A stretch of 45,783 bases of DNA from Prevotella sp. (GTDB taxonomy: Bacteria > Bacteroidota > Bacteroidia > Bacteroidales > Bacteroidaceae), in contig JAEEPT010000003.1 in NCBI GenBank assembly GCA_016284895.1, positions 1 through 45,783 on the forward strand. The letters run 5' to 3'. Below, piece after piece: positions 23,800-30,319 of the stretch (positions within the stretch are counted from its first letter, which is position 1; each line of letters opens with the position of its first letter). Both the position numbers and the translations under genes were made by a program. The notes below the pieces were generated by a model. That model was given only the letters and a program-made list of their open reading frames with translations, did no database searches and had not been told where the DNA came from.

Positions 23800-24213
23800 C
23801 TACTTGATTCCTTTACCCTCCAATATCTCCAGCATTTCTGCTGGTGTCACGACAATCGGCTTCTTGGGGAAATGTTTTGTATTGCCTGTCACGAGATAAG
23901 CACCATCCTTCGACAAAGCCACCTCATAGAAAACAACATCCTTGGGATCAGGAAAGGACTCATCACTTAACACGCGAACACCATGTATGCCATTGGTGAG
24001 TACTCTATCCAAAGCATCCTTAATCAATTCATCTGGAATGTTGAATTTATTGCGATGCAAGACATCAGAATATTCATCAATAATATCCTCACTATAGATA
24101 GGGATAATGTGACCTTTGAGGACCGCTTCCCAAACCTTTAGCGTCGGTGCTTTAAGATTTTTCGTGATATAAGCAGAAACCAGAACATTTGTGTCAATTA
24201 CTGCATAAATCAT
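23800..24213 (-). CDS. PIN-domain toxin of a toxin-antitoxin pair
   Basis: MIYAVIDTNVLVSAYITKN, EYSDVLHR, DPKDVVFYEVALSKDGAYLVTGNTKHFP. Confidence 0.9.
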   Translation of the reverse strand: MIYAVIDTNVLVSAYITKNLKAPTLKVWEAVLKGHIIPIYSEDIIDEYSDVLHRNKFNIPDELIKDALDRVLTNGIHGVRVLSDESFPDPKDVVFYEVALSKDGAYLVTGNTKHFPKKPIVVTPAEMLEILEGKGIK

Positions 24214-24536
24214 TTTGCTGTTTGATCCTTTGATGCTCTTTCCTCACGAGCCAATCTTATTTCTTCATTAATTTCCTCTAACGTCAGTTCGGGACACTCC
24301 TCAGCTGCCATCTTTGCTTTGTACTGATGAAACCTGCTTAGAGTGTCATCTTCAAATTCGAACTTGGAAATCCCAATTCTGAAGGGAATACTTTGTGTTC
24401 GCACTACAGCGTTGGCAAACACATTCATCGCAGTGTTAGCACTCATGCCTATACGTGCGCAGAATGCATCGAAGTTCTGTTTCAGCTGCGAGTCCATCCT
24501 TACGGTCATCGATACTTGTGCCATAGTCTTTGTCAT
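24210..24536 (-). CDS. RelB/DinJ-family antitoxin
   Basis: QVSMTVRMDSQLKQNFDAFCARIGMSANTAMNVFANAVVRTQSIPF; overlaps the toxin start by 4 nt; -7 at 24555-24562 (CAAATATA on plus). Confidence 0.9.
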   Translation of the reverse strand: MTKTMAQVSMTVRMDSQLKQNFDAFCARIGMSANTAMNVFANAVVRTQSIPFRIGISKFEFEDDTLSRFHQYKAKMAAEECPELTLEEINEEIRLAREERASKDQTAK

Positions 24537-24688: not shown

Positions 24689-27637
24689 TTAAATAAACAA
24701 TTCTCCCATCGCTACCGAAAGAGAAACTTTGCACCTGTCACATATATCTGTAATAGTTGCTCCATTAGCTGACAATCCATAGAAGTTGTCTTCACTTATC
24801 AGAATATATTCCCACTCCCTGTCCATACGCTCTTCAGGTTTCAACTCATTGATTTTACGTGTCCACTCTACTGCTGCAGTTTGTTTCTGACGTACATTTT
24901 TGTCAAACAGCTTGTCATTCCCCTTTGTCTCAATCAAAAATATCTTCTTATCGGTACCAACGATAAAGTCTGGGTGATAGGTTGCCATCAAGCCATCGCT
25001 TCTCATATAGTAGATGACTGCAAAGGAGTGCATGTTCTCACTTATTTTCAAGAAGCGTTCCACTTCGCCGTCTCTGTCAAGAAATTCGATGAATGCCTTT
25101 TCAAAGCCACCACGACTTGTCGGATAGCCTAACCTTTCATAGATACACTTACTAACCTCCACAGAGAATGATTCACGCATCTTGATCTCCATAACAGATG
25201 AGAACTTGGTATGCACCACCTGTGCATCCGTTGTCATGATACTATTTTGTATATTGAAGATAGCTCGTGCCATTTCCTCAATGATGTGTTTGGTAACAAC
25301 AGCATCCTTTGACAAAAGGATTTTCCAGTCGTTGCCATTAAATGGATTAAACGGCTGTCCGAACAGTCTGGTTCGGATATATCGGTCAACAACGGCCATG
25401 GTCTTTGCTTCGTTAATCTGCAGATTTGGAACCGGTATCTCCTTATGCGCCGACACGCGGTCGAAGCGTAATGTGATAGTACGTAGCAATTTCTGCAAAT
25501 ACTCATTGTAGCTGGTGGCTGTAAACAGATTTGCCGTCACCTTATATCGCCCGAACTGTGTCTTCGAAATAGCCTCCTGAGAGATAAAGGTTTCTCCTTC
25601 CTGCGCCAGGAACTTACGCAGTTTTTCCAATGTAAATGCCTTAAAGGGTTGCAGGTCACGAATATCAATTTCCACATCCTCCAATTCCTCTTCTGCTTCC
25701 CTCACGATGATAGGCCATTCAAAGTCGAACTGTTCATAGTTCTCTCTCAATCCCACCTTGATCATGTCACCTACTGCCCCCGACGCGCCTGTCTCGCCTG
25801 TTTCCTCTGCAGCCAAGCCTTCGGCAAATAATTCTTCATAGAATTGCAGGAAAGCCGGATGCTCAATGATGCTCAGCATGTCGATATATGTCGTGGGATG
25901 GGTATGAAGCTGAAGCACACGTTTTCTGTCAAGTTCCTTGATGCTCTGGTATTCTGGCTCTCGCCACATCAACCGCAATCCTCGGCCAATGATTTGCTCC
26001 AACAGGATAGGCGCTTCCGACGAGCGTAGCGGTACGATGACACAAATATTGTTTACATCGAAGCCTTCTCTCAGCATCAATACAGAGATGATGACCCTAG
26101 GCTTCTGATATTTGTCTATGTCGAAGAGCTTCTTCTTTGTTTCTTTCCATTCCTCTTCGCTCACTTCACCCTTGGCATTACTGTCTATGGTGACAACATC
26201 TTCTTGAGCCAATCCGTCTTCCAACAAAAGCTGATTGACGAAAGGCGCTACCGACGTATCTTCACAGATGACCAGCATCTTCGGGTTCTTCTTCTCATCA
26301 ACGGCGGTGAATTCCGTTTCCAGTCTTTTCAGTTTGGCAAGTCCTGCACGCAGCATCAGTCGCTGACCGTCGCTCAGATTGCAAACCTTGTTTCGCTCAT
26401 CGCGCACAGCCTTATAATCTAAGTCCTTCAGCTCTGTCAACTCTTGCCTTCTGTCCAAAAGAAGTGTCTTCACCAGTCCCTTGCGCATAGCCGTTGCCAA
26501 GTCGAAGTCAACGATGATATGGGGGAAGTAGCATTTCTGCACTTTCTTGCCTGAGCCACACTGATCATAGGGTGTGGCTGAGAAGTCCACTTGAAAGAAT
26601 CGTTCGCCCTTTTTCTCGGCTATGGCATTCAGTCCTTTCTGCCATTCTACTTCCTCTATCTCACCGTTTCGCTTCAGTTCATGGATGTGGTGAGCCTCAT
26701 CGTTGATGACCATGATGTCATCCAACTCTGCCAGATACTCCAGTTCCGAGCCACGCAGATAGCGGCGGTCAAGCATTCCCAAGTCATTGCCAGCCGCCTT
26801 GCCGGGACGGATGGGCAACAGCTTTTCAATTATTTCTGGTACACTCAACTGACCACTCCCCTCCGCAATCGGAGATGGGTCGGAGGTAAGGCTTTGGTTC
26901 TCAAACAGATGCCAGTTGGTCAGCGCAATCAGTCCGTCACCCGTTGTCTTTCGTCCGATGCCCTCTTCCTTTGTCACCACATTGTTCTGTATGAACGAAA
27001 AGACTTCCTGCCGATAATGCACAGGGATGAACACCTCTTGATTCAGATAGAAATCGTTCGTCTCTATGTTGCGCTCTGTCTTGCCACGTTCCATTCGTCC
27101 ACAGAAAGCATCCAACAGTCGGTCATAAACTATCAGACCAGGAGCTACGATCAAGAAGTTTTTTGTGAATCGGTTGGCAGAGTGACCACTCCCCTCTCCA
27201 ATCGGAGAGGGGTTGGGGGTGAGGCTGTGTCTGGCATTCAGCATCTGCCATATCAGCAGGGCATGCATCACCCACGTCTTGCCCGTGCCAGTAGCCATCT
27301 TCACAGCATACTTAGGCATCTGGTATTTCTTCTGTCCTAAGGTGCCTAAGTCCACGATGGGCATCAGGTCGGGTGTCAGTTGTTCGTAATATTCCATCAC
27401 ATTCTTTACGCCCATCACCTCATGCAGATAGATGATGTTCATGATGGCCTGTCGCTGACCAGCATGGAAGTTTCGATTTCTCAACGAACAGTATTCCTCT
27501 GAGAACCAGAACTTCAGCAGTTCCTGTGTGGTGGGTGTCACTTGCTCCATCAGTTCTCCACTCTCCCATGCAGCGTTTACCGTCTCACTGAGTCGCTTCG
27601 CCAACTCTAAAGAGACATTCATACTGTTATTTTTCAT
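24689..27637 (-). CDS. Type III restriction endonuclease (Res) subunit, SF2 helicase plus nuclease
   Basis: [18 protein letters not shown] (motif I), INDEAHH (motif II), [44 protein letters not shown]-terminal FLIETKG; overlaps mod by 4 nt. Confidence 0.92.
26850..26893 (-). repeat. In-frame palindromic peptide-coding repeat copy 1 ([14 protein letters not shown])
   Basis: 38/44 identical to the copy at 27183-27226; interrupts Res. Confidence 0.85.
27183..27226 (-). repeat. In-frame palindromic peptide-coding repeat copy 2 ([14 protein letters not shown])
   Basis: CCCCTCTCC-AATC-GGAGAGGGG palindrome inside Res, between helicase motifs I and Ia. Confidence 0.88.
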
Positions 27638-29691
27638 ACGCTCTCTACTACCTGACTTTCAAATCCAAATACATCCACAGCCTTAATGCACACCTGACGA
27701 TGCGCCTTCTTTGGTACACGCAAACGAGTCTTATAGACACAGTGCAACGGGTCGTTGTCGTTCTCAGTGTTCTCCCGATAGTCCTGCCAAGTAGAGCGGA
27801 AAGTTACTCCATCGTAGTCGGGGTCTATGCTCCAGTATTCTATCAGCGAGAGCGGGTCGCGCTCCAATACCTGTTGCAGTTTCTCCTTGTCTTTATCATC
27901 CAGCGGGATATTGTCTGGCGACAGCAGCACGTAGTTCTCCAACTCCACGTCTATCTCGTCCTGATCGCCATTCTGCTTCACCACCAAGGGCTTTGCCACC
28001 AGGTATTGCAGCGACGAGAAACGAACCGACTTATCGTCTATCAGTTTCTTGAAACCTTTCTTAGCCAGCTTATCCAACAGGTCGGGTGGAATCACCAGCA
28101 CCTCCACGTTCGAGTTCTCGTACTTCTGAATAGCTTGCGAAATATCGAAGGCGAAGTTCCAACCCAGCACAACCACTTTTTCCCAATCGCCACCAAGCAG
28201 CGATGCTTTAGCTTCTACAGCCTTGCGGATAGTGGCAGCAGTTGTCAGCCGATTAGGCGAATCTACCATTACTAGTGTTCGCGTACCTTTTATATATCCG
28301 AAGTTCCTGTCGTTTGTCTGCTCAGGTGTAAAGGGCAGAGCACCATACAATCCCAGTACCACTTGGCTCAAATCACCTACATGCTTATACCGTTTGTTGT
28401 TCCTAAACGCCTCCTTCTGATAGTCGCCTATGCTCTGATACAGGAATGGTTTCACTTCCTGGTCTATAAATCGCTTGCGCATCACCAGCGAAGCAGGCTT
28501 TCCAATATCACAGGTAATCCAGCGTCTGCCTAATCGTTCAGCCACAGCTGCCGTAGTTCCGCTTCCTCCAAAAAAGTCGCAGACGAGGTCGCCATCGTTG
28601 GAAGAAGCTTTGATGATGCGCTCGAGAAGGGCTTCAGGCTTTTGAGTAGTGTATCCAACATCTTCTTTGGCTTGTGAATTAACTGGATAAATATCGTTCC
28701 AGAGATCAGAAACAATATCCCCTTCCATTTCGTCAAGATATTGTACTTTCCTTGGAGTTCCTTTTGAGTTAAACATTATTCGTCCATCTCTAAAAGCTTT
28801 ATCAATATTTTCCTGTGACCAAATCCAATGCATACCACTAGGAGGAGCGATGATTTTTCCTTGGAAATTTCTTGGTTCTCCCTGTCCCTTCTGAACAAGA
28901 GAAACATCGGTATACATCCTTCCATTTTTATCTGGCTTATAATGACTTTTTATGTATTCTTCGCTATATGGAACATAAATGTTTTTGAAATTAGTATTAA
29001 CTGTTTTGGAATAACAAAAGATTGTGTCGTGAACATTTCCAAAAGAATTACTTTGAGCTTTTGTTGTTCTTATCTTCTGCCATATAACTTCATTTCTAAA
29101 ATTATCTTTCCCAAATATTTCATCAAGTATAGTTTTGACATAAGCTCCAATATGCCAGTCAATATGGACATAAATGCAACTCTCATTTGACATTAATTCT
29201 CTCATCAACGCAAGTCTTGGGTAAATCATCTTCAAATAAGAAATCGTACCTTCTTCCCACGTATCAGCATAAGCAAATTGTTCAATGACCGTTGGCTTCT
29301 GCTGAATATCCGTACCTGGCAAAGAAATCTTCGTCCGATAGTCTGCTTTGGAATCAAACGGCGGGTCAATATAGATAAGGTCAACTTTTCCGCGAAGCGA
29401 GGGAAGCCCAGTTTGAGCATCACCTGCAAGTAGGGCTTGCATCGCCAACAGATTATCACCATAGATGAGGCGATTCATCCACTCCCCATTACCTCCAGCC
29501 ATATTGAAAGCATTGGGTATCTGTGGAGCACTGCCCTTGAACAGTCCGTTTACATCCTTACTCGGCAATACAAGTTCATTGGTCTGCAACCCTATCTGCG
29601 TACCACTGCTCAGCCGCTCCAGTATCTGTGCAGCCTCGCGCCTGCCCTCACTCACGATACGGGGCAGTTCTTCGATTAATGATTTAGCCAT
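27634..29691 (-). CDS. Type III DNA adenine methyltransferase (Mod) subunit
   Basis: [46 protein letters not shown]; start could be 29691 ([11 protein letters not shown]) or 29733 (MARRISIKS). Confidence 0.92.
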
Positions 29692-29745
29692 TATAGCATT
29701 AGTTTTAGATTTTATACTAATGCGTCGCGCCATCAAACAAAACAA

Positions 29746-29810
29746 TTCCTGCAAGTACAGACACAAAACGTGGACGAATCCCCGTTCAGTGCTCCAGGTA
29801 CTTGCAGGAA
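29746..29810 (-). ncRNA. Candidate structured leader RNA: 65-nt hairpin with UUCG tetraloop
   Basis: RNA UUCCUGCAAGUAC...AACGGGGAUUCGUCCACGUU...GUACUUGCAGGAA: 13-bp perfect P1, inner CAC/GUG, AACG/CGUU and GGA-UUCG-UCC helices. Confidence 0.6.
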
Positions 29811-29834
29811 ACCTATACTATCAAAACAGGAAAA

Positions 29835-29855
29835 CGCCCACTATACAAGTGAGCG
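29835..29855 (-). promoter_or_regulatory. Terminator-like hairpin in the mod leader
   Basis: RNA CGCUCAC-UUGUAUA-GUGGGCG (7 bp with one G-U pair) followed by UUUUCCUGUUUU. Confidence 0.5.
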
Positions 29856-29861
29856 CCACCA

Positions 29862-29948
29862 CTATTCTGATAATATGTTCTTTCTACCTGCAAGTTTCGG
29901 AACACTTTGAATAATAGCCAACGCTAATGATTTTTCCACAAAAGTCAT
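29862..29948 (-). CDS. Putative 28-aa leader peptide/small protein (MTFVEKSLALAIIQSVPKLAGRKNILSE)
   Basis: Read manually; G-rich SD-like GGGGG upstream of the ATG; ~33 nt downstream of the TSS expected from the -7 element at 29988-29995. Confidence 0.5.
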   Translation of the reverse strand: MTFVEKSLALAIIQSVPKLAGRKNILSE

Positions 29949-29987
29949 ACCAGCACCCCCACTGAGGCCTATGCCGATACTTGATTG

Positions 29988-29995
29988 CAAAAGTA
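29988..29995 (-). promoter_or_regulatory. -7 element TACTTTTG for the mod leader transcript
   Basis: CAAAAGTA on plus; about 290 nt upstream of the mod start. Confidence 0.55.
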
Positions 29996-30170
29996 CAAAA
30001 AGAAATAGAAAACGAAAATAAAACTTCGAACTTTTTATTTCTCATGGAACGAATAAATATAAATCGCTGGGATATCTGGGCTAATTTCGTCAAAATATGT
30101 TTATGCATTTAACAGTTACTCGCGTGAAAAAATGCGCGAAAGACAGGAAACGTTCAGTGGATTGGATAGT

Positions 30171-30264
30171 TTAGGCTATTTCACGATGGGATTTAGGTTA
30201 GATGGTCACGCGATTTAGGCTATATCATCAAACGATATAGCCTAAATCGTGACGTGAAATAGCC
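30171..30264. repeat. TTTAGGC-type inverted-repeat element, copy A
   Basis: CGATTTAGGCTATATC (30211-30226)/GATATAGCCTAAATCG (30234-30249) 16-bp perfect stem, plus GGCTATTTCACG/CGTGAAATAGCC arms at 30174-30185/30253-30264. Confidence 0.9.
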
Positions 30265-30319
30265 AAGAACATTTTATGATTTAGGGTAAAACATGGCACT
30301 AATCCCTAACTGCCATTTT

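Follow-up and report, generated by a model that had tools for sequence, protein, structure and literature searches.

The window, a 45,783-nucleotide stretch of a Prevotella sp. contig, contains on its minus strand the restriction-modification genes mod and res, which overlap (Table 1). The start codon at 29691 and the assignment of mod, both given in an earlier note on this DNA, were confirmed (Pfam N6_N4_Mtase). The mod homologues (L009-L028) have near-identical N- and C-terminal stretches with highly divergent middles, the sequence pattern to be expected from target-recognition domain exchange. Following res on the same strand (23800-24536) are genes for a PIN_3-domain protein (23800-24213) and a RelB-type antitoxin (24210-24536). 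A genus-wide search with positions 29600-30000 gave about 20 loci, 73-86% identical, which were oriented and aligned, and conservation among homologues delineates a minus-strand leader of ~300 nt running from a Bacteroidota -7 box (29995-29988) to the mod start codon. The leader promoter is closely preceded by a palindromic repeat of ~130 bp (30168-30300) with an internal period of 22 nt (GATTTAGGCTATATCAT units), of which dozens of partial copies occur genome-wide (78 matches, E <= 0.01).

Table 1. Features of the mod-res locus and its 5' leader
Feature	Position	Strand	Basis
-7 promoter box TACTTTTG (Bacteroidota consensus TAnnTTTG)	29988-29995	(-)	Sequence
P1 5' domain GTATCGGC..CCTCAGTGGGGG..GCTGGTAT, AGYG tetraloop hairpin within stem	29944-29980	(-)	Homologue alignment; closing pairs co-vary
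Conserved RNA core, 170 nt (models R1/R2)	29760-29929	(-)	E = 8e-39 (R1), 9.5e-31 (R2); covariation
P2 hairpin AGCGTTGGCT, most conserved sequence of the family	29916-29925	(-)	Columns conserved >=90%
Strand a AGTGTTCC-GAA-ACTTGCAGG, 5' side of core helix P3	29887-29906	(-)	Covariation helices 2 and 3
P4 arm, variable 6-bp base helix and hairpin CGCTCACT/AGTGGGCG	29814-29876	(-)	Covariation helices 5-8
Strand b CCTGCAAGT-ACCT-GGAGCACT, partner of a (core fold) or c (reported hairpin)	29788-29808	(-)	Alignment, covariation, predicted folds
P5 hairpin with GGA-UUCG-UCC, and strand f (CCACG, 29773-29769)	29765-29787	(-)	Alignment-based
Reported hairpin, alternative state b:c	29746-29810	(-)	Shuffle z-score and alternative-fold energies
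Strand c GTACTTGCAGGAA, near-copy of a, captures b	29746-29758	(-)	Shuffle test, folds, homologues
T-rich tract TTGTTTTGTTTG and GGCGCGACGC	29722-29745	(-)	Conserved in close homologues
Start-codon-proximal hairpin GCATTAGT..ACTAATGC	29696-29723	(-)	Close leaders
mod, DNA methyltransferase (N6_N4_Mtase; best PADLOC hits type II/III)	27634-29691	(-)	Pfam, PADLOC
res, ResIII/helicase restriction subunit, overlaps mod	24689-27637	(-)	Pfam

The 65-nt highly structured hairpin that the earlier note described upstream of mod is real and far more stable than shuffled sequence. The arms of its perfect 13-bp stem (TTCCTGCAAGTAC/GTACTTGCAGGAA) are located at 29746-29758 and 29798-29810, and the nested helices including GGA-UUCG-UCC constitute the predicted minimum-energy fold. 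In the comparison with dinucleotide-shuffled controls that had been proposed as a check, the minus-strand RNA has a minimum folding energy of -33.9 kcal/mol against -15.8 +/- 2.8 kcal/mol (z = -6.45, 0/200), with a z of likewise -6.45 for the plus strand. The UUCG cap is present in the predicted fold, but its closing pair is A-U and it therefore differs from the extra-stable C(UUCG)G loop. Conservation in homologues extends to the outer stem, with 12-14 pairs in 46/46 unique close homologues, but not to all of the nested helices, as GCAC/GTGT is absent from some sub-groups and UUCG is exchanged for GNRA loops (GC-GAGA-GC, GC-GAAA-GC). The second 8-bp inverted repeat, GCATTAGT/ACTAATGC, is found at 29696-29703/29716-29723 and corresponds to the conserved start-proximal hairpin of the same leader, which is kept in 41/43 unique close leaders, with variants including GCAATAATA/TATTATTGC and a 3' arm ending 1-7 nt before the ATG. 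Compensatory changes, the tetraloop exchange, and an excess of G-U over A-C cells (see below) lend strong support to the proposal that this is an RNA structure and not a simple operator, but the boundaries were drawn too narrowly; the hairpin is not a complete element and forms the 3' end of a larger RNA, being one alternative fold of the ~300-nt 5' leader. An operator or DNA palindrome was rejected because strand asymmetry and tetraloop exchange favor RNA, and a dispersed repeat of the REP kind because only one copy of the hairpin itself occurs in the genome. A separate stable RNA of 65-100 nt is neither needed nor indicated by the evidence.

Covariation is seen in the helices of the core. 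Helices 2 and 3, which form P3, have double-sided changes at all 18 pairs with 94-95% of cells paired, and strands a and b change together in homologues as AGTGTTCC/GGAACACT, AACGTTCA/TTGAACGTT, and GATGTTCC/GGAACATC. In an alignment of 98 diverse members the P4 base helix is 97.6% paired, and over the whole structure 89.7% of cells are paired compared with 62.2% for shuffled partners and 37-39% for slid partners; the alignment was fitted to the structure, which works in favor of pairing, but the comparison with slid partners reveals how large the signal is. Double-sided changes occur at 46/51 pairs in this set (40/41 in an earlier 47-member set) with a covariation score of 0.697 compared with 0.207 +/- 0.005 for shuffled and <0.1 for slid partners. 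On the minus strand G-U cells number 378 against 103 A-C cells, indicating that the strand that folds is the one present in the downstream gene's transcript. The promoter motif TAnnTTTG is present <=170 nt upstream of the core in 52/67 members compared with 11.7% of random stretches, and the median distance from the core to the first downstream ORF with an ATG start is 61 nt (interquartile 49-75). Among the features that characterize riboswitches, the family has this covarying structured core, the 5'-leader position evident from the sequence (same strand, near the start codon, promoter upstream), and a computed alternative fold of the expression platform.

As judged from covariance-model matches, the core is shared by a large structured RNA family across Bacteroidota, mostly preceding restriction-modification or secreted-protein genes. 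The core covariance model R1 identified it in 61/399 genomes of the same bacterial family (15/30 genera) and the broader model R2 in 117/344 sampled Bacteroidales genomes (80/194 genera) and 22/297 genomes of a phylum sample, the latter mostly from families outside Bacteroidales and reaching other classes of the phylum; E-values of the models are rough and the per-genome match numbers in these large searches are lower bounds. GTDB genomes scanned independently for an exact pattern yielded at least 80 stretches, all 80 of those listed matching R2, and where the group is named in the title it is Bacteroidales. A phage-borne element was rejected, with 0 and 1 exact-pattern matches in viral contigs; the lone match (L246:12314-12334) is class II-like (classes are described below). 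Homologous cores stand before genes of >100 protein families. The Prevotella genome itself has nine core copies at E <= 6e-4 (R2). Copies in this genome other than the one before mod (L159-L163) are placed at C322:3611-3790, C61:4785-4955, C194:816-992, C64:1239-1414, and C220:3871-4043; where the gene could be identified, they stand before genes for a PLD/SNF2-type restriction-helicase (C322, C61) or secreted products (an LRR/BspA-like protein for C64, and C220).

The Rfam search suggested for the hairpin RNA matched no family in Rfam 15; cmscan with all families, run at permissive E-values on the window stretch and 29 loci from relatives, returned only chance matches below the gathering scores. 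The core resembles riboswitches and orphan riboswitch candidates in having several helices within a 5' leader, an alternative strand after the core, and many copies before unrelated genes. It differs in lacking an Rfam match and in a gene set of restriction-modification systems of all types, which is unusual, and it is riboswitch-like by predicted fold. The Flavo-1 RNA motif, computationally inferred and widespread in Flavobacteriaceae, is also a structured Bacteroidota element without known function, but its matches occur in either orientation and bear no relation to transcripts (PMC9723704), whereas the present members sit before start codons and have no cmscan match to Flavo-1. Some Bacteroidetes-wide candidate RNAs from a human-microbiome survey (PMC8040213) might overlap the present family, although the main text of that survey names no candidate with this gene association. 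No restriction-linked leader RNA is described in the literature searched, preprints, most subscription papers, and supplementary lists being outside its reach. The family and its gene association thus appear to be new, their kind being a riboswitch-like leader. The median 5' UTR length in Bacteroides thetaiotaomicron is 32 nt, and known riboswitches account for few of these UTRs (PMC7366714); an RNA family that is absent from Rfam and has several copies in many Bacteroidota genomes would close a real gap in what is mapped of regulation in a dominant gut phylum.

Strand b is complementary both to the upstream strand a and to the downstream strand c, which contains ACTTGCAGG at 29756-29748, matching part of a; because c is a near-copy of a, b is able to pair with either, and the reported hairpin is the b:c state. 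The calculated energies for the window leader are -112.7 kcal/mol for a:b and -113.6 kcal/mol for b:c, only 0.9 apart, and the two states, again close in energy, are 3.3 +/- 3.4 kcal/mol apart in 50 close homologues. Folding of the growing transcript of the window leader gives an a:b probability of about 0.99 until c is present, after which a:b falls to ~0.2 and b:c rises to ~0.8. As modeled, this length dependence is the thermodynamic profile of a kinetic switch. When downstream leaders are swapped between members, strand b pairs less well than with its native one (KS p = 8e-5). Downstream of c, GGCGCGACGC is partly complementary to P2, as seen by eye and in predicted folds, P2 itself hardly varying. 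In the window leader, the start-proximal hairpin is part of the predicted fold whichever state is adopted, so that any coupling of it to the choice between a and c would be conjectural.

Folding 86 members with their own downstream leaders separates two classes, the labels resting on predicted folds: class I, in which b is captured by downstream sequence (26/86), and class II, in which it is not (60/86). With gene products labeled as secreted or non-secreted by a simple hydrophobicity rule, 24 of the 26 class I members precede genes without a signal peptide-like N terminus, whereas 45 of the 60 class II members precede secreted or lipoprotein-like genes (Fisher p = 5.6e-9, kinship ignored). 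Fourteen class I downstream proteins are DNA methyltransferases or restriction proteins of types I, II, IIG, and III (Pfam/PADLOC), among which the NgoFVII-type PLD matches of L159 and L161 are weaker, and about six more resemble restriction-modification proteins by N-terminal sequence. The remaining class I genes encode two acyltransferases, a TupA-like protein, a HAD hydrolase, and two unknown proteins. These non-restriction genes count against the reading as a switch of restriction-modification genes. The link of one sub-class to modification genes of all four types suggests a shared RNA-level control of restriction. The same leader, complete with c and the start hairpin, is found before a type III mod gene in Prevotella and an EcoRI-type methyltransferase gene in Muribaculaceae, indicating a portable module. 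Genes for acyltransferase-type membrane proteins follow the leader in oral Prevotella and in some Bacteroides (L038, L058, L072, L121, L123, L129, L131, L132, L138, L139).

It is fairly likely that the mod-res mRNA begins with this region as its 5' leader, that the leader contains a member of the structured RNA family found across Bacteroidota, and that it acts as a two-state switch that would set restriction-modification expression. The modeled folds are best read as those of a riboswitch-like leader that acts in cis and has a switching strand specific to its lineage. Helix a:b would form first during transcription, and strand c, once made, would compete for b to give the two states; the core could respond to a ligand, a protein, or a physiological signal that biases the choice between a and c, the outcome of which would set expression of the operon. 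This outcome would probably be read out as translation initiation at the start codon, which the hairpin flanks, and less probably as termination at the T-rich tract after b:c. Speculatively, the family might constitute a phylum-wide class of sensor RNAs reading, for example, phage attack or a nucleotide or cofactor pool, with the duplicate-strand sub-class toggling restriction- and surface-modification genes.

A transcription attenuator, with b:c as an intrinsic terminator adjoining the U-rich TTGTTTTGTTTG and a:b as the antiterminator, is possible but doubtful. Strands a, b, and c have the classic three-strand arrangement and the competition known from terminator/antiterminator attenuators, strand order and energies are compatible, and the T-rich tract after c is conserved in the mod/EcoRI-methyltransferase clade, TTGTTTTGTTTG following the b:c stem in close homologues. 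However, the T-run is interrupted and sits 2-4 nt past the stem, it is not a clean terminator, and the tract is not uniform across the family, being farther off or short in other class I members and varying outside the close clade. The wider family differs from such attenuators in having neither a clean U-tract nor a leader peptide. A terminator scan, which covers short loops only, left b:c unflagged; the P4 hairpin CGCTCACT/AGTGGGCG was flagged as terminator-like.

An independent small RNA gene, trans-acting or structural, that merely lies upstream of mod would account for a compact structured core with its own promoter box and for homologous cores before so many protein families. It is improbable given the narrow spacing to the start codon, the correlation of leader type with gene type, the tie of the core to the gene through strand c and the start hairpin, and the lack of a conserved terminator between core and gene. 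A DNA element, either a folded single strand or a recombination site such as an attC-like cassette site or an invertible promoter repeat, would be in keeping with inverted repeats beside diverse cargo genes that include restriction and surface genes, but is very unlikely, as invertible promoters and integron sites would have no strand preference and the G-U excess reveals one, the asymmetric internal loop GAA/ACCT between a and b is conserved, and the multibranched covarying core has a promoter box upstream and no cassette arrays. One pair of core copies lies 2.4 kb apart (G1234 C163). Attenuation through a leader peptide encoded by a 28-codon ATG ORF from about 29953, readable in the window as MTFVEKSLALAIIQSVPKLAGRKNILSE, was rejected as next to impossible, since the aligned homologues carry GTG for ATG and an in-frame TAA at codon 6 and conserve no short ORF.

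In the riboswitch-like leader favored here a second internal competition may exist, as strand f is complementary also to the P4 3' strand. Eight cells of this pairing have double-sided changes compared with 1.8 expected (0/500 shuffles), for example CGTAGG/CCTGCG and CATGGG/TCCATG; some other measures are less decisive, and the competition is suggestive only. In class II members (e.g. L172, L202, L209, L176) a GGGACT-like strand complementary to the P5 3' strand (AGTCCC) is placed shortly before the start codon, with p = 0.003 (KS) for own compared with swapped leaders, and may form the expression platform of the secreted-protein class.
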